Notes: generated by a model from the sequence alone, not told the origin. A DNA stretch of 39,616 nt from an uncultured Candidatus Saccharibacteria bacterium (GCA_946804195.1 CAMPEU010000008.1:1-39616), one strand, 5' to 3'; positions 3,327-26,608 are shown, counted from the first letter of the stretch. Numbers and translations: made by a program.

Positions 3327-3479
3327 GTGAAACAGATTAGACATCTGTTAGCCATCAACACATCCCGTGTAGCATCACTGTGCACCTCTGTTAAAACGAC
3401 CCGACCGATGCATATCGGTCTTGCTGAATTTGTACAAATAAATTCCGATTTGCGGCTGCGGAAGGACGAGGTAATATAA
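3327..3479 (+). CDS. Possible leader peptide overlapping the giant gene start
   Basis: A frame open from 3261 contains a GTG at 3327 preceded by AGGGGG. From there it encodes 50 residues (MKQIRHLLAINTSRVASL... ending LRKDEVI). Its TAA stop overlaps the ATG of the 8.3-kb gene by one base (TAATG), which is the arrangement used for translational coupling. Composition is mixed and basic, with no signal peptide or family match. The stretch could equally be an untranslated leader that is open by chance; low confidence. Confidence 0.3.
   Translation: MKQIRHLLAINTSRVASLCTSVKTTRPMHIGLAEFVQINSDLRLRKDEVI
3403..3420 (+). other. Leader hairpin upstream of the giant fibre gene
   Basis: GACCGAT and ATCGGTC form a perfect 7-bp stem with a GCAT loop in the predicted leader. 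There is no T-run, so it is not a terminator. It may be structural or a protein-binding site. Confidence 0.4.
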
Positions 3480-6400
3480 TGCCAACTCCGCAAAGATTAC
3501 CTTTGGTTGATAGTGATGATGGCGTTTGGGGAGATATCCTTCGTCAGTACCTGATGAAGGAGCACACAAACAACGATACCGACAACATAGCTAATGGTGG
3601 ACACAAAACAATTACAGTTACTGCGGGCACTACGGCCGCCGGTACTGCACCAATAAAGCTCACCTCGGGCCCGTTGATGACCGCCTCTGAGGCTGGAGCA
3701 ATTGAATTCCTTAGTGATAACTTGTACTTTACTCAAACTACCAGTAATATGCGCAAAAAGGTCGCTATCTATGATGACAGCTCTGGAGCTACTGGCGACA
3801 TTTACTATCGCAATAGTTCTGGGTACTTCACGCGACTGGGCGTAGGGAGTAACGGCAATGTCTTGACTCTAGCCGGTGGACTACCTAGCTGGTCATCGTC
3901 CACTTCTGGCCAAACCATTAACCTTGCGAATAACACCCTCACTGGAACAACTGCTCAGTTCAATACCGCGCTGAGCGATAACGACTTTGCGACATTGGCG
4001 GGTACAGAGACGCTAACGAACAAGACCCTGACGAGTCCGAAGATTAACCTCATCAAGGATGCGGGTGGTGCAACTTCTATCGTCCCTTACACCGTTGCAA
4101 GTGCGGTTAACTACCTGCAAGTACTTGCAGGTACGACAGGGAATGGCATATCTTTGCAAGCTGTCGGAACTGACACCAACATCGGTGCACACATTTGGTC
4201 AAAAGGTACCGGCAGTATAAACTTCAGATCGTTAACCGAAGGCTCTGCGCTTATTGCCCAACCAGTAACGTCCGGCGTGAACTATACGATAATATCTGGC
4301 TCTGCAACCGGAAATGCAACACGCATTGAGTCTACTGGAACTGATACCAATATCAACATGAACCTTGTCACAAAGGGCGCTGGAATTGTTCAGGCTAACG
4401 GAGTTGAGATTGCCACAATATCTGGTACACAAACATTAACTAACAAAACTCTCACCACACCAAAGATTGATGCAATTTACGACGCTAACGGCAACATATC
4501 CGTGTCAATAGCTTCTACGGCTAGTGCGGTAAACTTCCTTCAGGCAACAAACGGAGCTACTGGCGGCGGCGTTTCACTATTCGCTTCTGGTAGTGATACA
4601 AACATTTCAAATAATATCTATAGCAAAGCTGCCGGTACGGTAAATCTACGTAGTAATACGAACGGCATCATCCTATCGGGCGTTCCCGTCGCCTCTGCCG
4701 TCAACTACCTAACTATTACTAACTCCACAACAGGACTCACGCCATCTATTACTGCAACAGGCTCGGACGGCTCCATCAACTTAGACCTTACTCCAAAGGG
4801 AAGTGGTCAGGTGAGAATTCTCGGCGTTCCTGTCGTAACTGAGACGAAAAACCAAACCCTGACCAATAAAACTATTTCTGGTAGTTCAAATACACTTTCT
4901 AATACCTTTACTTTGACTACCACGGGCACGAGTGGCGCAGCCTCTTATGACGGAACAACTTTGAATATTCCGCAATACCCAACTGGCGACGTCACTGGTC
5001 CCGCTAGTTCGACCGATGATGCCATCGTCCGCTACAATGGTACGACAGGAAAGTTAGTGCAGAATTCCGGGGCTACGCTAAACGATAGCGGTGATATCCA
5101 AACAGGCGGAAAGATTATCGCCGGAGACTATTCATACACATCAAGTACTCTACATCTGCTCGGCGGATCCGGCGGTCAACCAATTTTGCAATTATCGCGC
5201 GGTTCAGGAGTTACTCCATCCGATACATTCGATTTTGGATTAGCCGGGGGTGGTTTATCTATTCGCGATGTCGGTGCCGGCGGATATCTTGCGGCTAATA
5301 TGTTTGCGTACTCCTCCTCTTCGGAGGTCTACGTCGGTCAAAAGGGTACGGGCAGCAATCAGTCAAACAGAACAGCCATACTCAGTGCTACAACTCACAG
5401 TTCGAGCGTCGGTAGTAATATAGGTGGCCCTAGCCTAATCGTTCGAGGGGGTGGAGGAACGGGAACGGGAACACCAGGTGATATTTTGTTTAATACGTTC
5501 TCTACTACAACATCTGGTTCAACAGCGCAATCCAGCACAACACGCGTAACTATCGCCGCAACAACTGGAGTGATGACAATTGCTAATCCCGGTACGGTTG
5601 CAGGTTCCGTAGTCTCAATAGATAGTACTCAAACCCTCACAAACAAAACAATAGCAAGTCCCGTTCTCTCTGGCACCATAACAGGAACTTACACGCTAGG
5701 TGGATCACCTACATTCCCGTCAAATATCGTGACGCTGACGGACTTACAAACACTAACGAACAAAATACTTGATAGCGCAACACTCAGTGGAACGACTGTG
5801 GTTCCAAAAAATGATATTTTTGAGCTCTATAATACCGTTGATCAAACAACAAATTATGAACGAGTACGGCAATACTGGAGTGGTAACTCATTTACTATTC
5901 TTAACGAGGCTGCCGGATCTGGTACTGCACGAACGACCACTATTACTGCTCAGAATACATCCTTGATCGTCGGCTCTAATGTTGTTGTATCAAGGCCGGG
6001 CGGTACGGGTGTTGGTAATTTATTCAACGTCACGTCCACAGGTTTGACGTCTACCAGTTCGAATCAATCCGGTATTAGTATAACTCCGGTTATCAATCAG
6101 TCTGGCACGGCTAGCTATACAGGCCTCCATATTAATCCAACCGAAACCGCGACAGGATCCGGTGCAAAAAACCTCATTGATGCCCAGGTGGGTGGTGTGA
6201 GTAAGTTCACAGTAAGTAATACCGGAGCTGTGACTGTTGCGGCAGTAGGTACGAGTGCTGGTTCACTGGTTAGTATTGACGGTACTCAAACCCTAACTAA
6301 CAAAACTTTGACTACACCAGCAATCAATAATGCTGCCACTCTATCCGTAGGGAGCTTGAGCGGAGGAACTACAAACCCAACAAAAATTGTTTTCGAGAAT

Positions 6401-9400
6401 TCATATGCAACTAACACCCCCGGTAGTCTCGCAAGTCAAAAAATCCAGTTATACAGCGGTTACGGCTTCGCTATCTCGCCCTCGATGCTCGAATATCAGG
6501 CAGTCGCATCTGCAACACATAAATTCTTCATCGGTAGCACGGAACGGCTTGCGATCAGTGGCACCGATGTGACTATCGGGGGTGTATCTGCCGTTACTAC
6601 TACCGATTCACAAACTCTCACGAATAAAACCCTCTCATCACCAGTTTTATCTGGAACTATCACGGGCACCTACACACTTGGCGGTACACCAACATTCCCA
6701 TCAACTGTTGTTACGACGACAGGCTCTCAAACCCTGACAAATAAAAACATGACTTCGGGCACTAATACGTGGCCAACGTTTAATCAAAACACGACCGGTT
6801 CTGCGGCCACCCTTACAACAGCGCGTAACATCTCACTAACTGGTGATGTAGCTGGATCTACGTCATTCAATGGTGGATCAAACGTCAGCATTACTGCAAC
6901 CGTGGCAGATGACAGTCACTCGCACTCTATCAGTACACTCACTGATCAAAGTCGCCTATTCAATAACATGGGTGACGTTCATTCAACTCGAAGTACATTT
7001 GACGCGCAAGGAGCTGGATCCACGGTTGATTATGGTTGGCGGTACGTAAAGGGTAACACAAATGGACCCGGCACCAATGGTGCCTCCCAATACTACAGTG
7101 CTCTAATCGGACTGGGCAATGAATACAATTACAACAGCTACGGAATGCAAATTGCATTTCCGCGTAACGTCAGCGAACCTTACATCTCGATCCGTTACGA
7201 GGAAGCTGGCGCTCTTCAGGCGTGGCAAAAGATTAGTGCTGGAGACTCTGACAAGCTAGGTGGCGTAGCAGCATCGTCATACGTCAGTTCAACCGGCACG
7301 CAAACCCTTACAAATAAAACAATTGTCTTACCACGACTAGACGATTTGTACACCGACACACCAACAAATCTAAATTACACACTGGGAAGTAGCTCAGGAA
7401 ATTATCCCGCCTTTAGCCCCGTACCTAAGTATCTGTGGCATGACCTTCTACGATTTAGCCGTTGGTTTGGCGCACCCATCTACGAAACCTACAGTGGAAG
7501 CTGGTCATCCCAAACACTAAACACAGCATTTTTCAACGGTAAAGAATCGCAAGCGGTAACAGTAGCGGACGGAACGACAACAACCGCCGCTCGTTGGACA
7601 TGGAACAGCGCTAGCGCTTCTTATAGTAGTATTTCGTGGTGGATTCTCGGCTTTACGTACGTAGCTGGAGGTCAGACTAATGACATTTTGGTGGAATCAT
7701 CGACCAATGGAAGTACCTGGACAACTCGCCATACCTCTAGTTCAACTGCCAGCGGGAGTCCGGTCTGGCTCTATCAGTCACCTCATAGTGGCGACTCGTA
7801 TCTTCGCCTAACTATCACATCTACAGCCGGTCAAAATATCAGGCTTAGTTCTATTAGAGCGCTGTCTACCCGCTGGGGCGATCAGGGTGGTGGATCTGAA
7901 TACGAATATCCGTATGCCTGGGATAACGACCAAAACATTACAGTCGGGGATAACTCTCCACGCTCTAACGGCGCCTTGAATCTCGGCAGCACTTCGACAA
8001 CAACGGCAGCGGGGGGAGTGTACTTTGGTAATGATACCAACCTCTATCGCAGCGCTGCAAATACACTCAAAACCGACGACACACTGATCGTAGGCGGTGG
8101 TACTTTGGCTATAGGAGATTCACAGAGCACGGCCAATTATATTGAATTGCAGAAAACAGCTACATCTGGCGAAAGTAATCTGCCTCGTATTCGTTCGGAT
8201 AGTATTATCAACTCAGGATCAGGCAACGACCTTGTCCTGTCGTCAAGAAGTAGTTCGGGGGGTGTTGTCTTTGAAACGGGTAATGGCGGTGTCCGTCAAC
8301 TCGCCCTAGACTCTACGGGTAAACTATTACTCGGTAACAGTAATGATACTAATTTATATCGTAGTGCTGCAAATACGCTGAAGACTGATGACAACCTGAT
8401 TGTCGGTACAGCAGGAACGGCTGCGGGAAGCGTTGCAACGATTGATGGCGCGCAAACTCTCACAAACAAAACAATAACCTCCCCGAGGATTAATACCATT
8501 CTCGACGGCAACGGTTACAACATATTAAACTTTGCGTCCGGCACCACACCTACCAATTATCTATCAATTGCGAATAGTACTAGCTGGGTTGGTTTAAGTG
8601 CCGTAGGCTCTAGTTCAAGCATTTCCATATACACATATCCAAAGGGTAGTGGTGTTTCAGTTATATACACTTCGTCAGGCAATACCCCGACCCTACAAGC
8701 CAATGGGCAGGACACTAATCTCGACCTTAATCTAACATCTAAGGGTACGGGTGCCGTACAAGCTAATGGTATCGATGTGGTCACGATCTCCGGTTCTCAA
8801 ACCATAACCAATAAAAACATGACATCCGGCACGAACACCTGGCCAACATTCAACCAAAGTACCACCGGCAACGCCGCCACCGCCACTACTGCGACGTATG
8901 TCACTAGTGGAATGCCAAACAACACCGATAACTACATGAACTTTCGGGTTATCAGAAATATTAACACCTCGACAAGTAATGACGGTCTATACATTGGTTA
9001 CGGCAACTCCAATAATGGGCTTACCAGAATTTTTGGTGGTGGTGATACGACGAATTATGTCACGATCAACACTGGCGGTACGCTCACAGCCCCCGGAACA
9101 GTACAGGGTACTCGTCTAATTTCCACTCAGGCAACTGGCACAGCACCACTAACCGTATCCTCGACAACAAAAGTCACTAATCTGAACGTCGACATGCTCG
9201 ATGGCAACCAAGCATCAGCATTTCCTACTCTTGCCGGAAACAATACTTTCACTGGTGGCAATAAGATTACTGTCCAAAATAGTCAGGACGGTGGCTCTAA
9301 TAGAGGCATCTGGATGTGGAGTAGCGGTGACTCTAACTGGGGCATTTACATGAGTACGGCGGGGGCAGCGAAATCTCTAGCTGGCGGTACTGCTGCTGCT

Positions 9401-11806
9401 GGAATAGACGGTAGAACCTCGCATGGTATCCGGTTCCGCTCCAGCGACTCTTCAACTCAGATTGGGTTTCTGTGGGAAAACAAAAACGATGTCGCCTTGA
9501 TGCAGTTGACGCCCAATACCGGCAACCTCTACACCATGGGTGATATTTATGTCGGTAATAGTACATCCAACAAAGTAGCCACACAGACAGGCACCGAGAC
9601 ACTCACCAACAAGACTCTCACTAGTCCGATAATCAACGGGAATACGTCGATAAACGGTGACCTCACTGTTGATAACGGTACGAATTCCATTATCAACGTC
9701 ATCTCTGACGACGGCGGCGTTTCCGGCATCCAATTGTACGGTGACTCTCAGGGTACAGGCTATGTCGAGGTAGGCCAGTCTACTTCGCACGGTGGTGGAA
9801 TGTACTACAATGGTGACGGTTCACCAGCGTTCGCATCTGGAGAGGCTACCGACACAATTGGTTTCTACCGCAAAAGCGCAAGTGTTCGTAGTGAAGTTTT
9901 TTACTACGCACATAACAGTGATGATGTTTACTTTAATGGAGCCATTAGTTCTGGCGGCGTCCCTGTTGTCACAACCACAGACACTCAAACTCTCACAAAC
10001 AAAAACCTTACTTCCGGTACAAACACCTTCCCGACATTCAACCAAAGCACTACAGGCAATGCCGCCACTGCGACAACGGCAACCAATCAAAGCGGTGGTA
10101 CTGTTAATGCAACGACAGGTACCTTTACTAGTTATGTAAACACAGATGAAATCAGGAATCGAACCGGTACGCAGCTAGTTATAAATTCTGGTGATTCGGC
10201 TGGAGTAGCAACTGGCCAGACTGGCGAATTAGTTTACCTCAACGCCGAGAATGGTATAGAAATCAACAGCTCTCCCAATAACTGGGGTAGTGGTTGGGCA
10301 GGCCGGAACACTGCAACTATCAATAATTCATCGGGTAATAGCACTTTCCCGGGTACTATTCAGGGAACCGTCTTAATTTCTACCCAGTCTACCGGCACTG
10401 CACCGTTGACCGTATCCTCAACTACCAAGGTCACCAATCTCAATGCCGATTTGCTCGACGACATGGATTCTAGTGCAACCGCCACCGGCAGCACGATAGT
10501 GGCCAGAAATTCCGCCGGTGACATATTTGGGCGTTATCTAAACATGAGCCATGGCGTATCGACGCGTAGTAGCGACACGGTATTTTACTCTTCCACAGAT
10601 GACTACATCCGCAAAAACAACGCCACCGGATTTAAGAATTCGTTGTCACTAGATAACGTAGACAATACTGCCGACTCTGCTAAAAGTGTAGCGTCGGCTG
10701 CTCAATTGACTACCGCCCGCACGATCGCCCTATCCGGTGCCGCCACCGGCACCGCTACCAGCTTTAACGGATCGGCTAATATTACAATTCCAGTGACCGC
10801 ATTGAACGCCAACGATCTCAATACTGGAACTGTACCGGATGCTCGCCTGGCGGGTACTTACTCAGGATTCACGCACAAGATTGACGGATCAAATACAATC
10901 TTCACCACACCAAATTCAGGGTCTTCGAACAGTTCGGGCCGCACGGTCTACGGTTTAGCCGAGTATCGCAGCAACAGCAGTGGGCAAATCGGAGCTATCA
11001 TTTTTTACGCACCAAACACAACTAGTTCGATTATGCACCAGTTAGAGATCAATGGATTACTCTATAATCAGAATATTGTGCAAATAACCGTTCAGGGTTA
11101 TCGCACGACGGGGGCCTGGAGTGATCTACGAAAGATTAGTACTGGCACAGTTGACGTACAGGTACGATGGGGGGTTGATCCATCCGGAAAGAACTGCCTA
11201 ATTTTAGGTGATGTTGCTACCAGCTGGTCTTATCCTCACCTATCTATCGTGCGGGCAATGTTCAGCCATTCTGGCGCCAGTGATGCCTATGCTACGGGTT
11301 GGACAGTGGGGGTGGTGACTGATCTGACCGGTTTCACCCAGGTCACATCCAGCATTTCCGACTCGACCATGGTTGGTAGTATCTCGGGTAATGCCACTAC
11401 CGCCACTACTCTGCAGACAGCCCGCACAATCGGAGGAGTGTCTTTCAATGGTTCCGCTAATATCAACCTACCGGGCGTCAACACCACCGGCAATCAAAAT
11501 ACTTCTGGTAGTGCCGCTACGCTGACAACCTCACGGACTTTCCAAACGAACCTTGCGAGCACCTCATCGGCTTCGTTTAATGGTTCTGCTAATGTCACGC
11601 CGGGAGTTACGGGTACCCTGGCTGTCGGTAATGGTGGTACAGGAAGCACTAATGCCGCAAGTGCTAGATCAAGCCTGGGACTGGGTACATTTGTTGATGG
11701 TTCCGTAAACGGATCACCTACATCACTGATTTTATGGACAGGAACAGTTGCCCAGTACAATGCAATCGGTAGCAAAAATTCTAATACGGTGTATATTGTA
11801 ACGTAA
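3479..11806 (+). CDS. Giant phage tail-fibre-like repeat protein (2,775 aa)
   Basis: The N-terminus, RLPLVDSDDGVWGDILRQYL then GHKTITV and a segment with AGAIEFLSDNLYFTQTT, is of a kind I associate with phage tail-fibre proteins. The body is beta-rich (Ser/Thr/Gly/Asn, almost no Cys) with at least 13 copies of the motif QTLTNKT, starting near 4009, 4430, 4850, 5627, 5742, 6282, 6609, 6725, 7300, 8452, 8796, 9593 and 9984, followed by S/TP or GTNTWPTFNQ blocks. Insertions at about residues 1145-1260 (DDSHSHS, then a Trp/Tyr-rich domain) and 1305-1470 (Trp/Ser-rich) may be receptor-binding beta-sandwiches. The end, ILWTGTVAQYNAIG...TVYIVT, is a common tail-fibre terminal pattern. There is no signal peptide, membrane segment, sortase signal, visible S74 chaperone domain or enzyme motif. 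A likely ribosome site (AAGGACGAGG) precedes the ATG. Role inferred: trimeric fibre for binding a cell surface. Confidence 0.8.
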   Translation: MPTPQRLPLVDSDDGVWGDILRQYLMKEHTNNDTDNIANGGHKTITVTAGTTAAGTAPIKLTSGPLMTASEAGAIEFLSDNLYFTQTTSNMRKKVAIYDDSSGATGDIYYRNSSGYFTRLGVGSNGNVLTLAGGLPSWSSSTSGQTINLANNTLTGTTAQFNTALSDNDFATLAGTETLTNKTLTSPKINLIKDAGGATSIVPYTVASAVNYLQVLAGTTGNGISLQAVGTDTNIGAHIWSKGTGSINFRSLTEGSALIAQPVTSGVNYTIISGSATGNATRIESTGTDTNINMNLVTKGAGIVQANGVEIATISGTQTLTNKTLTTPKIDAIYDANGNISVSIASTASAVNFLQATNGATGGGVSLFASGSDTNISNNIYSKAAGTVNLRSNTNGIILSGVPVASAVNYLTITNSTTGLTPSITATGSDGSINLDLTPKGSGQVRILGVPVVTETKNQTLTNKTISGSSNTLSNTFTLTTTGTSGAASYDGTTLNIPQYPTGDVTGPASSTDDAIVRYNGTTGKLVQNSGATLNDSGDIQTGGKIIAGDYSYTSSTLHLLGGSGGQPILQLSRGSGVTPSDTFDFGLAGGGLSIRDVGAGGYLAANMFAYSSSSEVYVGQKGTGSNQSNRTAILSATTHSSSVGSNIGGPSLIVRGGGGTGTGTPGDILFNTFSTTTSGSTAQSSTTRVTIAATTGVMTIANPGTVAGSVVSIDSTQTLTNKTIASPVLSGTITGTYTLGGSPTFPSNIVTLTDLQTLTNKILDSATLSGTTVVPKNDIFELYNTVDQTTNYERVRQYWSGNSFTILNEAAGSGTARTTTITAQNTSLIVGSNVVVSRPGGTGVGNLFNVTSTGLTSTSSNQSGISITPVINQSGTASYTGLHINPTETATGSGAKNLIDAQVGGVSKFTVSNTGAVTVAAVGTSAGSLVSIDGTQTLTNKTLTTPAINNAATLSVGSLSGGTTNPTKIVFENSYATNTPGSLASQKIQLYSGYGFAISPSMLEYQAVASATHKFFIGSTERLAISGTDVTIGGVSAVTTTDSQTLTNKTLSSPVLSGTITGTYTLGGTPTFPSTVVTTTGSQTLTNKNMTSGTNTWPTFNQNTTGSAATLTTARNISLTGDVAGSTSFNGGSNVSITATVADDSHSHSISTLTDQSRLFNNMGDVHSTRSTFDAQGAGSTVDYGWRYVKGNTNGPGTNGASQYYSALIGLGNEYNYNSYGMQIAFPRNVSEPYISIRYEEAGALQAWQKISAGDSDKLGGVAASSYVSSTGTQTLTNKTIVLPRLDDLYTDTPTNLNYTLGSSSGNYPAFSPVPKYLWHDLLRFSRWFGAPIYETYSGSWSSQTLNTAFFNGKESQAVTVADGTTTTAARWTWNSASASYSSISWWILGFTYVAGGQTNDILVESSTNGSTWTTRHTSSSTASGSPVWLYQSPHSGDSYLRLTITSTAGQNIRLSSIRALSTRWGDQGGGSEYEYPYAWDNDQNITVGDNSPRSNGALNLGSTSTTTAAGGVYFGNDTNLYRSAANTLKTDDTLIVGGGTLAIGDSQSTANYIELQKTATSGESNLPRIRSDSIINSGSGNDLVLSSRSSSGGVVFETGNGGVRQLALDSTGKLLLGNSNDTNLYRSAANTLKTDDNLIVGTAGTAAGSVATIDGAQTLTNKTITSPRINTILDGNGYNILNFASGTTPTNYLSIANSTSWVGLSAVGSSSSISIYTYPKGSGVSVIYTSSGNTPTLQANGQDTNLDLNLTSKGTGAVQANGIDVVTISGSQTITNKNMTSGTNTWPTFNQSTTGNAATATTATYVTSGMPNNTDNYMNFRVIRNINTSTSNDGLYIGYGNSNNGLTRIFGGGDTTNYVTINTGGTLTAPGTVQGTRLISTQATGTAPLTVSSTTKVTNLNVDMLDGNQASAFPTLAGNNTFTGGNKITVQNSQDGGSNRGIWMWSSGDSNWGIYMSTAGAAKSLAGGTAAAGIDGRTSHGIRFRSSDSSTQIGFLWENKNDVALMQLTPNTGNLYTMGDIYVGNSTSNKVATQTGTETLTNKTLTSPIINGNTSINGDLTVDNGTNSIINVISDDGGVSGIQLYGDSQGTGYVEVGQSTSHGGGMYYNGDGSPAFASGEATDTIGFYRKSASVRSEVFYYAHNSDDVYFNGAISSGGVPVVTTTDTQTLTNKNLTSGTNTFPTFNQSTTGNAATATTATNQSGGTVNATTGTFTSYVNTDEIRNRTGTQLVINSGDSAGVATGQTGELVYLNAENGIEINSSPNNWGSGWAGRNTATINNSSGNSTFPGTIQGTVLISTQSTGTAPLTVSSTTKVTNLNADLLDDMDSSATATGSTIVARNSAGDIFGRYLNMSHGVSTRSSDTVFYSSTDDYIRKNNATGFKNSLSLDNVDNTADSAKSVASAAQLTTARTIALSGAATGTATSFNGSANITIPVTALNANDLNTGTVPDARLAGTYSGFTHKIDGSNTIFTTPNSGSSNSSGRTVYGLAEYRSNSSGQIGAIIFYAPNTTSSIMHQLEINGLLYNQNIVQITVQGYRTTGAWSDLRKISTGTVDVQVRWGVDPSGKNCLILGDVATSWSYPHLSIVRAMFSHSGASDAYATGWTVGVVTDLTGFTQVTSSISDSTMVGSISGNATTATTLQTARTIGGVSFNGSANINLPGVNTTGNQNTSGSAATLTTSRTFQTNLASTSSASFNGSANVTPGVTGTLAVGNGGTGSTNAASARSSLGLGTFVDGSVNGSPTSLILWTGTVAQYNAIGSKNSNTVYIVT
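4003..10030 (+). repeat. Thirteen dispersed QTLTNK-type coding repeats
   Basis: Motif copies of the form (G/S/D)(T/S)(Q/E)TLTNK(T/N) recur at irregular 115-1,150 bp spacing inside the giant gene. Codon choice differs between copies (for example CTAACGAACAAG, TTAACTAACAAA, CTCACAAATAAA). They are therefore old, protein-level repeats rather than recent DNA duplications. Longer blocks such as GTITGTYTLGG and TNTWPTFNQ recur with them. Confidence 0.8.
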
Positions 11807-21731: not shown

Positions 21732-23390
21732 CTAGAAGCGTTCGCGAATATGCGTAAAGCTATAATCCCAATCGGCATTAGCTTTTTTGTGTGGATTAAA
21801 GATTCCTTGCGGGTCAAAGATATCCTTTGTCTCGCGGAATAGTTTGACCATTTCTTTGCCATACATTGCTTCTAGCCATGGTCCGCGTACGAGTCCGTCG
21901 TTGTGCTCTCCGCTCAGACTACCTTTGTATTCTAGTACGAGGTTATTGACCTCCTTCATGGCGGGCAGTATCTTTGCACGATCCTTTGGATTTTCCAGCT
22001 TCATCAGAGGGATGATATGGAAGTTGCCGTCACCCATATGTCCTGCAATCGTTGCAAATAATTTGTACTTTTTGATAAGTTTTCTAATTTTTGGTAAAAA
22101 TTCAGGCAAATGTTCGGGATTAACGACGAAGTCATCGATAAACGGTGCCGTATGCTTGTCATGCACTTTGCTACGTAGTAATTGAAAACTATAGCGACGC
22201 ATAACCCAAAACTTTTCGCTAGAACCTTCGGTTGGTGTTTCTTCAAAACCATTTATTTCATATCGTACTTTTAGCGGACCCAGCTCTTTGTGCAGCGCTT
22301 TTATCTTGTTACGAACTTCTAGCTCGGTATCACCCGTGAATTCAGCCAGCATAACAAGCTTTGGAAAGCCCTTTAGTAGCTGCAACCCATCCGGTATAAG
22401 GCCGAATATTAAGCGTAGGAAGCGCCAAGGACCGAGCAGGCGCAAAAAGCTCGGCATGAACCGAATACTGAGCCATAATGTTTGGTCGTCAAATCCTTCG
22501 AACGTTGCTGGTTTATGCACCAGTACTTTTTCGATAAGTTCGCCTAGGTTATCAATATCGCGCATGAATATAACCAGTAGTCCCGAATGCTTTGGTCGTG
22601 GTACCAATTTGAACGTTGCCTCGGTCACGAATCCCAGCGTACCCTGTGCGCCGATTATGGCTTGCGTCAAATCAAATACGCCCGTTTCGCGGTCCCATAC
22701 GTTCCACAAATTATATCCAGTCGAGTTTTTGCTGACCTTTGGTTTAGCCTTTTTTATCTGGTCATAGTGCTTATCAATTAATTCAAATAAATCTCGATAC
22801 ACTTTACCTTCGAAATCATCTTGATCCATCTTGTCATTCAGCTGTTTACGATTCAGCGGTTTTACTACACGCTCAACACCGTCTGCAAAAACAAACTTCA
22901 TTTCGGGCACATATCGCTCTGTCTTGCCAAACTGTAGCGACTTTTCACCACCGGCATTATTATTCACAATACCACCCATGGCACACAGATCACGACTCGC
23001 AGGGTAGGAGGGGAACAGCCAATCTCCTGTATGTTGATCAAAATCACGGAACAATAGTCCTGGCTGCACGACCGCTTTGTCATTTTTTTGACCGATAAAT
23101 TTGTTCAAATGTTTCTTGAAATCAACAATAATTGAATCGTTAATGGCCGCACCAGACATATCAGTGCCAGCACTACGAGCCGTCAAAGACAAATCACGTT
23201 GATGTTTTTTTCGTTCACTGACAACTTTTACGGCCGCTTCGACATCTTTTGCCGTTTTCGGTGAAATCACCAGCTGTGGACGCAGTTCAAACATACTGGC
23301 ATCGTGTGAGTAAAAATCGAGAGTATCTGATGAACTATCTATATCACCCGTAAACTTGTGTTGTTTTAACGCCTGTTTAATTTCTTCCAT
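21732..23390 (-). CDS. FAD-linked oxidase/dehydrogenase (GlcD/lactate-dehydrogenase type)
   Basis: 552 residues. The N-terminal FAD_binding_4 (PCMH-type) domain is clear: LVISPKTAKDVEAAVKV, LTARSAGTDMSGAAINDSII, VVQPGLLFRDFD, YPASRDLCAMGGIVNNNAGG. A C-terminal FAD-oxidase domain follows, with GHMGDGNFHIIP (the His-containing motif of glycolate/D-lactate dehydrogenases), SGEHNDGLVRGPWL and DIFDPQGIFNPHKK. It would oxidise a 2-hydroxy acid and pass electrons to quinone or another acceptor; the substrate is not readable. Some homologues carry an added Fe-S domain, absent here. TGC-TAATAT (23400-23405) lies nine nt before the ATG, predicting a near-leaderless transcript. It is one of few redox enzymes in the window. 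Confidence 0.92.
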   Translation of the reverse strand: MEEIKQALKQHKFTGDIDSSSDTLDFYSHDASMFELRPQLVISPKTAKDVEAAVKVVSERKKHQRDLSLTARSAGTDMSGAAINDSIIVDFKKHLNKFIGQKNDKAVVQPGLLFRDFDQHTGDWLFPSYPASRDLCAMGGIVNNNAGGEKSLQFGKTERYVPEMKFVFADGVERVVKPLNRKQLNDKMDQDDFEGKVYRDLFELIDKHYDQIKKAKPKVSKNSTGYNLWNVWDRETGVFDLTQAIIGAQGTLGFVTEATFKLVPRPKHSGLLVIFMRDIDNLGELIEKVLVHKPATFEGFDDQTLWLSIRFMPSFLRLLGPWRFLRLIFGLIPDGLQLLKGFPKLVMLAEFTGDTELEVRNKIKALHKELGPLKVRYEINGFEETPTEGSSEKFWVMRRYSFQLLRSKVHDKHTAPFIDDFVVNPEHLPEFLPKIRKLIKKYKLFATIAGHMGDGNFHIIPLMKLENPKDRAKILPAMKEVNNLVLEYKGSLSGEHNDGLVRGPWLEAMYGKEMVKLFRETKDIFDPQGIFNPHKKANADWDYSFTHIRERF

Positions 23391-23399
23391 ACTTTTACT

Positions 23400-23405
23400 A
23401 TATTA
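23400..23405 (-). promoter_or_regulatory. -10 box of the FAD-oxidase gene
   Basis: Minus-strand TGC-TAATAT, with nine nt to the ATG at 23390. It lies just downstream of the terminator at 23432-23452, so the gene is transcribed separately from the island. Confidence 0.45.
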
Positions 23406-23431
23406 GCACAAGCATCATATCTGATGACATC

Positions 23432-23452
23432 AAAAAAACACCCCTTGGGTGT
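23432..23452 (-). terminator. Terminator of the first island unit
   Basis: On the minus strand ACACCC, AAG loop, GGGTGT, then seven T. It starts at the stop codon of the 54-residue ORF. Confidence 0.8.
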
Positions 23453-23616
23453 CATTGAAAGATTGATGATGGTGTGGGGGGCATTTCGGCACCGGCACCA
23501 CCCCGGGGGGACCAGGCGGGATCAACAGCGGGCCAATCATCCGCGTCCTGCGGATTGAGCAAGCGAGTTAACCACGACCATAAGGTCTGGCCAACCAGCT
23601 GTTTGACATGCGCCAT
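23452..23616 (-). CDS. Island small protein 1 (54 aa)
   Basis: MAHVKQLVGQTLWSWLTRLL, then NPQDADDWPAVDPAWSPRGG and a Pro/Ser-rich end. An amphipathic N-terminal helix is followed by a disordered tail rich in Pro, Asp and Trp. The start is fixed by a near-perfect GGAGGTG seven nt upstream; the frame is open far upstream but without signals. It follows the 113-residue gene by 61 nt and ends on a terminator. Not recognised. Confidence 0.55.
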   Translation of the reverse strand: MAHVKQLVGQTLWSWLTRLLNPQDADDWPAVDPAWSPRGGAGAEMPPTPSSIFQ

Positions 23617-23677
23617 GTGTTCACCTCCGTCGGTTTGCATCGTAGTGATCGGAGTTGTCTGCGAATCATTCACTCGA

Positions 23678-24019
23678 TTACTCGGGCATAACACCGTCCA
23701 TAAATCGATTGAAGTCCTCGGTGCCCGGATTGGGGCGTTGGTCAGACTTCGGATAGACATGAGTCCTTGGGGTGTCATCGGGCTCGATCAGATTACCCAT
23801 TTTGACACCAGCCGGAACCAGCACGTCTTCTTTCCAAACACTCGGTTCACCGTCGAACATCAGCGCGACTTCCGGCTGAGGCAGTTGCCACACCAGAGCG
23901 AACATCCGCGCCAGCACTGCATGAGCACGTTTTTCGTCCAACTGACGATCAGTAACTTCCTCCAGCGTGTCCAGCTGCGCTTCGATGACGGTGAGTGCGT
24001 GCGATTGTCGGCTAGTCAT
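23678..24019 (-). CDS. Island small protein 2 (113 aa)
   Basis: MTSRQSHALTVIEAQLDTLE is followed by an acidic/basic helical half (EEVTDRQLDEKRAHAVLARMFALVW), then VALMFDGEPSVWKEDVLVPAG and a polar C-terminal tail ending FMDGVMPE. No signal peptide or membrane helix. The start at 24019 is placed by GAAGGGA nine nt upstream; two earlier in-frame ATGs lack a site. Transcription is expected from 24122-24150 with a leader of about 95 nt. GC-rich codons contrast with the oxidase gene beside it. Function unknown. Confidence 0.6.
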   Translation of the reverse strand: MTSRQSHALTVIEAQLDTLEEVTDRQLDEKRAHAVLARMFALVWQLPQPEVALMFDGEPSVWKEDVLVPAGVKMGNLIEPDDTPRTHVYPKSDQRPNPGTEDFNRFMDGVMPE

Positions 24020-24121
24020 AGCCATTCCCTTCACTAGTTGTTCCACTCATTGAAAAGATCGGTGTCGCTGATCGGAACAAGTGGTTTATTGCTTGTTCGC
24101 CCGATGAGCGATACTAATACT

Positions 24122-24150
24122 ATTATAGCATATTTGTATGTATATTTCAA
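24122..24150 (-). promoter_or_regulatory. Island promoter P1
   Basis: Minus strand: TTGAAA, 17 nt ending ATGC, TATAAT. It is nearly the same as P2 at 24892-24920, including the spacer end. Confidence 0.75.
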
Positions 24151-24167
24151 TACCCTAGGCCGCAGCA

Positions 24168-24192
24168 ATAAAAAAACCACCGATGAGGTGGT
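24168..24192 (-). terminator. Terminator of the second island unit
   Basis: Minus strand: ACCACC, TCATC loop, GGTGGT, then seven T. It ends the transcript carrying the 52- and 101-residue genes. Confidence 0.8.
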
Positions 24193-24197
24193 GTAGC

Positions 24198-24215
24198 TAA
24201 CAAGTAGAAGCAGTA
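24198..24215. repeat. 18-bp inverted repeat, left arm
   Basis: TAACAAGTAGAAGCAGTA; its exact reverse complement is at 24811-24828. The arms enclose a GC-rich hairpin and two genes; promoter P2 lies outside them. Confidence 0.8.
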
Positions 24216-24222
24216 GGACTCA

Positions 24223-24257
24223 CGCCCCGCCGAGCGAATACTCAGCTCGACGGGGCG
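24223..24257 (-). repeat. Repeated GC-rich hairpin, copy 1
   Basis: Arms of 13 bp (CGCCCCGCCGAGC / GCTCGACGGGGCG, one C-A mismatch) around a 9-nt loop GAATACTCA. The enclosing 39 nt (24220-24258) match 24986-25024 at 38 positions. It follows the 52-residue gene. Confidence 0.8.
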
Positions 24258-24273
24258 GTCCCGAAAAAGGTAG

Positions 24274-24432
24274 TCAATCGATGGGCTGACCGGTCATCTG
24301 TTTTGCACGGATGGCCAGCTGACGACGTTCGGTCTCGTGACGACGCTCTTGGCGCCAATGACACAATCCCTGCCAGAGTACCCGAAATCCCTCGGGCACC
24401 TTGCGTGCATCGAAGTGATACGGCATGAACAT
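24274..24432 (-). CDS. Island small protein 3 (52 aa)
   Basis: MFMPYHFDARKVPEGFRVLW, then QGLCHWRQERRHETERRQLA and IRAKQMTGQPID. It has a Trp/His-containing first half and a long Arg/Gln-rich amphipathic helix. GAAGGAG lies six nt before the ATG. An alternative frame over the same bases is slightly longer but lacks a good start site. It lies 53 nt after the 101-residue gene and before the repeated hairpin. The charged helix could bind nucleic acid or a partner protein; not recognised. Confidence 0.55.
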   Translation of the reverse strand: MFMPYHFDARKVPEGFRVLWQGLCHWRQERRHETERRQLAIRAKQMTGQPID

Positions 24433-24485
24433 ATCGCACTCCTTCATCGTAAACTAGGGTCGTACATGGTTCCGATTAACTACTG

Positions 24486-24791
24486 CTAGTCCCGTACTAT
24501 GAAAAGCTTGGGCTTTTCATGTGATCGAGACGGTGCGCCGCCAGACATAACCTTTGGATTTGTCACAGCGTATATCCGCATTTCATTTTCCAGGATGGTC
24601 GCCTCGCGAAAGTCGAGCTCGGCAATCAATGCGCTACGATATTCACTTGCGTCTGCGATAGCAAAAAGGAACATTTCGCAAACATCGGTACCCGCATCCG
24701 CCAGTGATCTGACGTCTAACCCTGCGATTATATCGCACAGGCCTTCCACGTCCTTGCGGATGCTTGACGATTCCCTGCCACGATCAGTCAT
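24486..24791 (-). CDS. Island small protein 4 (101 aa)
   Basis: MTDRGRESSSIRKDVEGLCD is followed by a helical run (IIAGLDVRSLADAGTDVCEMFLFAIADASEYRSALIAELDFREA) and a C-terminal polar tail with HEKPKLFIVRD. No signal or membrane segment. GGAAGG lies eight nt before the ATG. The N-terminal IRKDVEGL..IIAGLD resembles IREDINAL..LIAGRLD of the 112-residue gene at 25039, so the two are possible paralogues. It is transcribed from P2, and one arm of the 18-bp inverted repeat lies in its leader. Function unknown. Confidence 0.6.
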   Translation of the reverse strand: MTDRGRESSSIRKDVEGLCDIIAGLDVRSLADAGTDVCEMFLFAIADASEYRSALIAELDFREATILENEMRIYAVTNPKVMSGGAPSRSHEKPKLFIVRD

Positions 24792-24810
24792 GAAGTGACC
24801 TTCCTCGATT

Positions 24811-24828
24811 TACTGCTTCTACTTGTTA
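24811..24828. repeat. 18-bp inverted repeat, right arm
   Basis: Perfect reverse complement of 24198-24215. It lies between promoter P2 and the ribosome site of the 101-residue gene. Confidence 0.8.
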
Positions 24829-24891
24829 ATGTTCTCAGCTGATTAGATAAAAGTAAAACTCATATATCTATCAGCTTGCGAATCCAATCAT

Positions 24892-24920
24892 ATTATAGCA
24901 TAATTGTCTATATAATTCAA
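24892..24920 (-). promoter_or_regulatory. Island promoter P2
   Basis: Minus strand: TTGAAT, a 17-nt spacer ending ATGC, TATAAT. It matches P1 in both boxes and in the AT-rich spacer. Leader of about 95 nt to the ATG at 24791, as for P1. Confidence 0.75.
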
Positions 24921-24936
24921 TAGTTACTATTCGGGA

Positions 24937-24964
24937 ATTAAAATACCACCCGTAACGGGTGGTA
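24937..24964 (-). terminator. Terminator of the third island unit
   Basis: Minus strand: TACCACCCG, TTA loop, CGGGTGGTA, then TTTTAATT. It sits between the GC-rich hairpin copy 2 and promoter P2. Confidence 0.7.
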
Positions 24965-24988
24965 AAGCAACGGGTGAAAGCAGGTTCA

Positions 24989-25023
24989 CGCCCCGTCGAG
25001 CGAATACTCAGCTCGACGGGGCG
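24989..25023 (-). repeat. Repeated GC-rich hairpin, copy 2
   Basis: Perfect 13-bp stem (CGCCCCGTCGAGC / GCTCGACGGGGCG) with the same 9-nt loop as copy 1. It begins 16 nt after the stop of the 112-residue gene. Confidence 0.8.
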
Positions 25024-25038
25024 GAGTCCAATCAGGTG

Positions 25039-25377
25039 CTAGGTTATCATTGCAACATATTGTCCAATCAGCTGAACCGGATCGATACGCAGCCGCTCCC
25101 AGCTACACCGATCCTCAGGTGACATTACTAGATAAGCATGGTGCAACGCTTTTCGAAGCTCGGCTGGATTACTGGACCCACCGGATAACTTCTTGACTAG
25201 GGCCAGCTGTCTGACGAAAGTCATGCAATCGGTAATCGCTTCTGCAGACCTTTCGAAATCATCTCGATCTCTATTGGTCATCCTCGTGACAATAGCAACC
25301 GCGTCCAATCGCCCAGCGATTAGGGCAAGAGCATTGATATCCTCACGAATGGCAGTCAACGAATTTTGCTCGTGCAT
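25039..25377 (-). CDS. Island small protein 5 (112 aa)
   Basis: MHEQNSLTAIREDINALALI, then AGRLDAVAIVTRMTNRDRDDF and a helical, charged remainder with SNPAELRKALHHAYLVMSPEDRC and RLRIDPVQLIGQYVAMIT. Soluble, without signal peptide. GGGG lies about ten nt before the ATG (AGGGGATGTTATT). The first 25 residues resemble those of the 101-residue protein. Its unit is promoter 25466-25494, gene, repeated hairpin, terminator. Function unknown. Confidence 0.6.
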   Translation of the reverse strand: MHEQNSLTAIREDINALALIAGRLDAVAIVTRMTNRDRDDFERSAEAITDCMTFVRQLALVKKLSGGSSNPAELRKALHHAYLVMSPEDRCSWERLRIDPVQLIGQYVAMIT

Positions 25378-25465
25378 AATAACATCCCCTTCGGGTCTTT
25401 CACTCGTTGTTAAGGGTCTCGACTGACGGTAATTGTGTAGTCTATCAGTTGACGAAACTCATAGC

Positions 25466-25494
25466 ATTTTACAATGATTCGCGCCGGCAGTCAA
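25466..25494 (-). promoter_or_regulatory. Island promoter P3
   Basis: Minus strand: TTGACT, 17-nt spacer, TAAAAT. Back to back with the rplA promoter; the two -35 boxes are seven bases apart. Confidence 0.65.
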
Positions 25495-25501
25495 TTTGAT
25501 G

Positions 25502-25530
25502 TAGACAAGCGACCCCTGTTTTGTTATAAT
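25502..25530 (+). promoter_or_regulatory. Promoter of rplA
   Basis: TAGACA, 17-nt spacer, TATAAT preceded by TGT (extended -10). Start near 25537, leaving a leader of about 60 nt. Confidence 0.75.
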
Positions 25531-25547
25531 AATCACATAAAATCAAT

Positions 25548-25590
25548 GCTGGGAGGCAGAAACCCTGCCGTATGTACCACAGAAAGGATT
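25548..25590 (+). promoter_or_regulatory. Probable L1-binding autoregulatory leader of rplA
   Basis: The leader reads CTGGGA, then GGCAG-AAACC-CTGCC (5-bp stem), then GTATGTACCACA just before the ribosome site AAAGGA. A GGGAG ... short stem ... ACCAC layout upstream of L1 genes is what I recall of L1 mRNA sites that mimic its 23S rRNA site. The match is from memory and by eye. Confidence 0.45.
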
Positions 25591-25597
25591 AACAATT

Positions 25598-26608
25598 ATG
25601 GCCAAAAAGGCTGAATTGCTAACAAAGGCAAAAGAACTCGGACTCGAAGTAACCGAGAAAAACACTATATCGGAAATCGAGATGGCTATCGATAATGCTC
25701 AGACTGCTCCGACTGACGAGCAAACAGAAGCAGTGACGGAGGAGCCAGCAAACGATAAACCGGCTGCAAAAGCGGGAAAACGTAGCGAAAAAGCGCAAAA
25801 AGAAGTATCCGAAAAATTAGAGAAGGAAGCTCGCAAAGATGCGGGTGATACAACTCCTCAATCCGACGAAGCAGAATCGCACGTCAAAAGAGGCGCTGCA
25901 CCAAAAATCCGTCCACGTTCTGAACGACGTGGTAAAAACTATCGTAAGGTTGCCGGGCAAGTTGAACACAGCAAAGTATATGCACTAAAAGACGCTCTCG
26001 ACCTCGCGGTAAAGACAAACCCAACCAAGTTTGACGCAAGCGTTGAAATACACGTCCGATTAGGCGTCGACCCACGACAAGCAGATCAAAACGTCCGTGC
26101 AACAGTCGCACTTCCACACGGTAGCGGAAAAACTGTGCGTATCGCCGTATTTGCACCAGAGGGTGATCACAATGCTGCTAAAAAAGCCGGTGCCGATATC
26201 GTAGGTGACGAGGAATTCCTAAAACAACTGGAAAAAGAAGATCTAAACTTCGACATCCTTGTTGCGACACCTCAATTCATGCCACGCCTTGGTAAATATG
26301 CACGTCTGCTTGGCCCTCGCGGTCTCATGCCAAACCCAAAGAGCGGAACTGTTGCAGCTGACGTTGCAAAAGCCGTTACTGAGGCAAAGGCTGGTCGCGT
26401 AGAATATCGTGTCGACAAGCAAGCCATTGTACACGTTGCCATCGGCAAGGTAAGCTTTGGTGCTGACAAGCTCCACGACAATGCAAGTGCATTCTTTGAA
26501 AGCCTTAAATCGCAAAAGCCTTCAGGCCTCAAAGTAAACTACGTTAAAACGACGAGTATCAGTACCACTATGGGTCCTGGTATTAAGGTTGACGCTGGAA
26601 TTAATTAA
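25598..26608 (+). CDS. rplA: 50S ribosomal protein uL1 with N-terminal extension
   Basis: 336 residues against about 230 for usual L1. Residues from about 105 are normal L1: [14 protein letters not shown], then [40 protein letters not shown] and the signature [15 protein letters not shown]. The first 105 residues are an addition: a small helical unit ([22 protein letters not shown]/HeH-like in feel) and a Lys/Glu/Ala-rich disordered linker. AAAGGA precedes the ATG. L1 binds 23S rRNA at the E-site stalk and often represses its own mRNA. Here it is monocistronic, followed by a strong terminator, and separated from rplK by 5 kb. Confidence 0.96.

Follow-up and report, generated by a model that had tools for sequence, protein, structure and literature searches.

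In the 39,616-nt stretch of DNA analysed here (hereafter the window), and at the corresponding locus of sister species, small mRNAs are encoded between a FAD-linked oxidase gene and rplA, and the leaders of several of them include, immediately before the Shine-Dalgarno sequence, a segment complementary to the 3' UTR of the same transcript. Sequence statistics and covariation, presented below, indicate that at least five transcripts from four species encode such a helix, that compensatory change has preserved it, and that it is for the most part specific to the transcript in which it occurs. We consider it probable that several of these mRNAs are self-closing, most like the hbs mRNA of Bacillus subtilis, and that their 5'-3' pairing would control decay. 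The genes concerned are undescribed small genes in repeated transcription modules, and their most distinctive feature appears to be this self-closing mRNA design, which is of a known but rare kind.

The window corresponds to contig C8 of a reduced genome of 0.99 Mb in 28 contigs (G000), and its gene content, which includes type IV pilin-like ORFs and an RplA with a long N-terminal extension, is suggestive of Saccharibacteria/Patescibacteria. The island occupies the minus strand from 23432 to 25494 and is flanked by the FAD-linked oxidase gene on one side and rplA (25598) on the other. As an earlier note on this DNA had described, it holds five small minus-strand genes, all of which are present and open, in three separate units. 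In each unit a promoter is followed by a leader of ~90-100 nt, by one or two short ORFs bearing ribosome sites and by a terminator (Table 1); the terminator scan placed the three terminators at 24964-24944, 24192-24176 and 23453-23437. Promoter-like sites were in excess over the scanned 22900-25900 interval (11 observed versus 3.7 in shuffles). Since shuffles yielded about as many terminators as the three observed (2.8), the case for these rests on their position and not on their number. Units A and B have a 52-nt repeat in common (87% identical) that contains the 13-bp GC-rich hairpin ascribed to two of the units in the earlier note, and the promoters of units B and C lie within a 45-nt repeat (80% identical). 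The suggestion of GC-richer codons also held, as in both GC and GC3 the island ORFs fall at roughly the 90th-100th percentile among 325 ORFs from this genome.

Table 1. Features of the three island units, with positions counted from the first letter of the window.
Feature	Position	Strand	Evidence or remark
Unit A promoter, TTGACT-17-TAAAAT	25466..25494	-	Promoter scan
Unit A leader segment CAACGAGTGAAAG, proposed 5' half of closing helix	25397..25409	-	12/13 paired; 81/4000 shuffles; in predicted fold
ORF A, 112 aa	25039..25377	-	All-helical, low-confidence structure prediction
Unit A GC-rich hairpin, 13-bp stem, loop UGAGUAUUC	24989..25023	-	Repeat and fold
Unit A 3'-UTR segment CTTTCACCCGTTG, proposed 3' half of closing helix, between hairpin and terminator	24969..24981	-	Helix scoring
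Unit A terminator TACCACCCGTTACGGGTGGTATTTT	24940..24964	-	Terminator scan
Unit B promoter, TTGAAT-17-TATAAT	24892..24920	-	Promoter scan; in 45-nt repeat with unit C promoter
Unit B leader segment TAACAAGTAGAAGCAGTA, proposed 5' half of closing helix	24811..24828	-	18-nt perfect inverted repeat; 0/4000 shuffles; covariation
ORF B1, 101 aa	24486..24791	-	Orthologues in G008 (47%) and G009 (36%)
ORF B2, 57 aa, arginine-rich	24274..24447	-	Related small ORF in G008
Unit B GC-rich hairpin, loop UGAGUAUUC	24223..24257	-	Loop consensus with G008 and G009, UGANUAUUC
Unit B 3'-UTR segment TACTGCTTCTACTTGTTA, proposed 3' half of closing helix	24198..24215	-	Inverted repeat; helix score; covariation; predicted fold
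Unit B terminator ACCACCTCATCGGTGGTTTTTTT	24170..24192	-	Terminator scan
Unit C promoter, TTGAAA-17-TATAAT	24122..24150	-	Promoter scan
Unit C leader block ACCGATCTTTTCAATGAGTGGAACAAC	24037..24063	-	Identical in G008, similar in G009
ORF C1, 113 aa	23678..24019	-	Related ORF in G008 (30%); weaker similarity in G009 (27%)
ORF C2, 54 aa (63 aa from upstream ATG at 23643)	23452..23616	-	G008 counterpart 32% identical
Unit C terminator GACACCCAAGGGGTGTTTTTTTGA	23430..23453	-	Terminator scan

The complementarity, which the earlier note had missed and which carries the module repeat further than described there, takes the form of an 18-nt perfect inverted repeat in unit B, with arms 595 nt apart. 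Helices of differing sequence recur in the B orthologues of sister species, in one other small unit and in a pair of orthologous units that encode an MFS transporter. They measure 10-21 nt, stop 12-21 nt upstream of the start codon, and leave unpaired the Shine-Dalgarno sequence that follows closely on their 3' side. The leader segments of units A and B both end 19 nt upstream of the start codon, immediately 5' of AAGGGG in A and 5' of the Shine-Dalgarno sequence GAGGAAGG in B, and the 3' arms of both units lie between the GC-rich hairpin and the terminator.

Because the energies of whole leader/3'-UTR duplexes were dominated by long imperfect pairings and were uninformative, we scored the strongest gap-free helix that each leader could form with its 3' UTR (G-C 3, A-U 2, G-U 0.5, mismatch -4). 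Units are named here by genome and unit. The best scores were 42.5 for G000_B, 37.5 for G002_MFS, 35 for G009_B, 32 for G002_2 and 29 for G008_B. With each leader restricted to its last 60 nt, none of the dinucleotide shuffles (n = 4000 per unit) reached the score of the first four units, and 14 reached that of G008_B. Weaker helices were seen in G008_MFS (48/4000), G000_A (81/4000) and G008_C (176/4000), and no significant helix was seen in G000_C, G002_1, G002_3, G005_2, G005_3, G006_C, G009_1, G009_C and G009_D; the units of G001 and G003 were assessed by eye only. Scores of at least 29 were obtained for 5 of 17 island units versus 2 of 310 other G000 genes drawn from 20 sampled stretches of that genome (Fisher p 4e-6). 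The top-scoring other gene (L078, 48.0) was rejected as a closing helix, as it consists of two similar terminators facing each other. In a blind scan of ribosome-site starts against terminators over ~324 kb outside contig C8, 0 of 85 pairs scored 25 or more, and the same scan over the island loci recovered the cognate leader/3'-UTR pairs. The helix itself is well supported.

An alignment of eight units, with the helix taken as the structure, showed changes on both sides somewhere for 17 of the 19 pairs and gave a covariation score of 0.58 versus 0.07-0.15 when slid. Since these eight units were chosen for having a helix, this result is not independent of the shuffles; the independent tests are the per-unit shuffles and the genome null, and the covariation describes how the units co-vary. 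Compensatory change was also seen within orthologous sets, namely B (three species) and MFS (two species). The minimum-energy fold contained the helix in all eight helix-bearing transcripts tested, where it was worth 7.5-21 kcal/mol. Whole transcripts mostly folded better than their shuffles, which we attributed mostly to UTR hairpins; since the coding regions have only mild structure (mean z of about -1.6 versus -0.2 in controls), we do not claim a rod-like RNA.

The strong leaders of G000, G009 and G002 all scored highest with their own 3' UTR, and the arms co-change unit by unit. Both observations argue against an action in trans, in which 3'-UTR fragments of one unit would serve as small RNAs on a leader motif common to the others. 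Such an arrangement would nevertheless draw on the loose motif TTRACAAGTGGAA that the leaders share, which could mean that some of the complementarity is maintained for a partner in trans, and on strong non-cognate pairs: the G008_MFS leader scored 28.5 with the G008_B 3' UTR versus 27 with its own, and the G002_1 leader 34.5 with G002_3 versus 20.5. It would also accommodate unit C, which retains a leader block for which helix scoring found no 3'-UTR partner in this genome. We regard trans action as a decidedly improbable account of the complementary segments. Scanning the neighbourhood of other starts for the leader motif returned one unrelated place only. In G002 (L017), a 12-nt complementarity between the unit 1 leader and the intercistronic region of unit 3 (score 34.5) marks a candidate trans interaction between two transcripts.

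Full-length mRNAs of the hok-type and AapA1-type I toxins are held by 5'-3' pairing; they encode short hydrophobic toxins and are accompanied by an antisense RNA. The island mRNAs would resemble them in the predicted closure of the full-length message by 5'-3' pairing, but their products are 54-113 aa long and lack evident hydrophobic segments. In the icaR mRNA of Staphylococcus aureus, a UCCCCUG motif covers the Shine-Dalgarno sequence and represses (PMC3868564, in which hok is mentioned as well). The hbs mRNA of B. subtilis has a 14-nt interaction between its 5' and 3' UTRs that protects from RNase Y (Braun et al. 2017, as described in PMC7821165 and PMC9093591). As far as hbs is described in those papers, the likeness lies in pairing between the two UTRs of one mRNA (~14 nt in hbs) in an organism that bears RNase Y; we found leader/3'-UTR complementarity of at least 10 nt beyond chance, and compensatory change among units selected for their helix. 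Going by the same descriptions, hbs is a single mRNA, whereas here several unrelated small-protein mRNAs and an MFS transporter mRNA at one locus have helices that co-change, and two units (A and B) add a GC-rich hairpin; protection from RNase Y would apply here by analogy only. A 2021 review named only a few bacterial mRNAs with pairing between their own 3' and 5' UTRs (RNAIII, icaR and hbs) and stated that wider use needs study (PMC7821165). In the present locus, it seems that several adjacent messages, and their counterparts in sister species, use this rare design.

On the favoured hbs-like reading, the leader stretch would pair in vivo with the 3'-UTR stretch of the same transcript once transcription has finished. 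By analogy with hbs, the helix would shield the leader from RNase Y, and it may also shield the 3' end from exonucleases, with the ribosome site staying usable as the Shine-Dalgarno sequence would be outside the helix. Small helical proteins would then be made from a message that is long-lived or under feedback control, much as reported for hbs. We infer these effects on stability and translation, like the transcription of the units, from sequence features. The same helices might instead act as in icaR, as substrates of RNase III that also brake initiation, with the 3' UTR lowering the output of its own mRNA. RNase III is encoded in the genome, as is RNase Y, the helices, which reach 18-21 nt, lie directly next to the ribosome site, and icaR 5'-3' pairing operates in this way (PMC3868564). 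However, the Shine-Dalgarno sequence is paired in icaR, while here it lies outside all of the stronger helices, just 3' of them. Because the helices spare it, we favour a control of stability or coupling as in hbs, and repression of the icaR type seems unlikely to us.

We sought rplA in all ten genomes of the genus and read the DNA between it and the FAD-linked oxidase gene. One or more minus-strand units were present there in seven of nine congeners, i.e. in every readable one; the contig of G007 stops near rplA, and G004 gave no rplA. The G008 island consists of an MFS transporter, B and C, and that of G009 of another small gene, B, C and a fourth unit, across two contig ends that are near-identical in their overlap. 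G002 has a small gene, an MFS transporter and two more units; G005, whose locus was found via its 3' module, the end of an MFS gene and two units; G006 a single C-like unit; G001 one different gene; and G003 an MFS transporter and a small ORF. Recognisable relatives of B and C thus occur in two sister species (G008 and G009), and the B-C order is preserved in three species. As part of the explanation that we hold to be probable overall, the island would be a genus-conserved row of independently transcribed small-protein mRNAs. The MFS (EmrB/QacA-like) transporter gene lies inside the island in four congeners (L014 1910-3475, L017 7076-8752, L039 1-1149 and L020 3100-4800) and is absent from that of G000; in G008 and G002, where the two orthologues are just 49% identical, it has its own closing helix. 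The two G009 contigs, C21 (L015) and C30 (L031), both end in the same unit B, with a few differences between them, a pattern suggesting that strain variation has split the assembly.

Outside the genus, in the family sample, the region upstream of rplA held other genes or rplK. The earlier note had placed the island where rplK and rplA are normally contiguous. The island does separate the two genes, but so do three others, namely two plus-strand hypothetical genes and the minus-strand FAD-linked oxidase gene, and contiguity varies among the genera of the family, with rplK still adjoining rplA in some (G146 and G039) and apart in others. That note had also suggested a gain from a host or phage. 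We found no phage relatives among 50,697 phage records, no plasmid relatives among 72,556 plasmid records and, for A, B1 and C1, no match among viral contigs. With the units syntenic, in the same place and on the same strand, in all readable congeners, a recent phage or plasmid gain was rejected. Conservation and synteny in the manner of housekeeping genes had been named there as evidence against an accessory cassette; the units are syntenic and their anatomy is conserved, but they are fast-evolving and not housekeeping genes.

Two further explanations would dispense with an RNA helix that has been kept as such, and we consider each of them very improbable. At the DNA level, the inverted repeats could be the ends of shuffling gene cassettes or recombinase sites, since unit number and content vary among species and the layout recalls integron-type cassettes. 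The arms, however, are precisely placed, one in the interval that separates promoter from ribosome site and the other beside the terminator, the helices contain G-U pairs, and the B-C order is constant in three species; moreover, the arm sequences are unit-specific, so that there is no common recombination site. The units could also be ordinary fast-evolving orphan genes with strong terminators, whose complementarity reflects chance and shared UTR ancestry. Some units without a helix would fit this, as would a lone small gene with hairpin and terminator elsewhere in the genome (L081), but the four units with no shuffle reaching their score, the genome null and the covariation all speak against it.

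As the earlier note had stated, the five products are not recognisable: none of them matched a family in Pfam, PHROGs, NCBIfam or PADLOC. Their relatives likewise gave no known-family profile match above cut-off, and a B1 profile had no match above cut-off in the PDB. Relatives of ORF A were sought in 100 other genomes and none was found, and B1 had no convincing relative outside the genus in a family sample of 245 genomes (genus included). B1 was predicted to be a two-helix protein with moderate confidence (mean pLDDT 73), and a fold search with this structure returned no match with an E below 1. The island proteins turn over quickly, as judged from B1 identities of 47% (G000-G008), 36% (G000-G009) and 28% (G008-G009) versus 90% for the adjacent FAD-linked oxidase (G000 versus G008). 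As for the roles that we infer for them, it is our conjecture that interaction with a host or a rival could have shaped these, which would suit proteins that diverge rapidly while their locus stays fixed. Nothing observed in the island amounts to a secretion signal that would mark the products as the effectors suggested as a possibility in the earlier note.

The GC-rich hairpin was searched for genome-wide by sequence and with a covariance model, and only the two copies of units A and B were found. Across three species its loop reads UGANUAUUC, and one stem pair varies between U-A, U-G and C-G. No known structured RNA family in Rfam matched at the gathering score. Weak matches of a 3'-module model in other genera were rejected as being at chance level for 242 genomes. 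More tentatively, and with rather less confidence than we place in the hbs-like reading, self-closing UTRs may be a general expression device of a locus-specific mRNA family: the helix would be kept as a structure while its sequence and the proteins diversify, each message having its own private lock, and the UGANUAUUC hairpin would be a protein-binding handle. Self-closing mRNAs at this locus, on the hbs-like reading as well, would offer a way into post-transcriptional control within a very reduced and probably epibiotic group, and into the expression of orphan small genes there. The natural compensatory changes make a direct test easy to design.

Some observations were made elsewhere in the window and genome. 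A plus-strand ORF of 2775 aa with repeated 'TLTNKTL'-type segments (3479-11806), tail-fibre or adhesin-like, is preceded by three pilin-like ORFs (1009-2676). Between the island and rplA (25500-25597), and in the rplA leaders of several congeners, a conserved AATGYTGGGAGGC...CACAGAAAGG is perhaps an L1 autoregulatory site. On contig C1 of the same genome, L078 (5900-7400) contains a further cluster of small orphan genes with similar strong terminators (AGCACCCTCGCATGCGGGGGTGCTTTT). The lone orphan gene in L081 (7277-7860, minus strand, contig C4), of ~147 aa and next to an Obg-like GTPase gene, has a promoter, a leader, a 12-bp GC-rich hairpin and a terminator, an anatomy like that of the island units.
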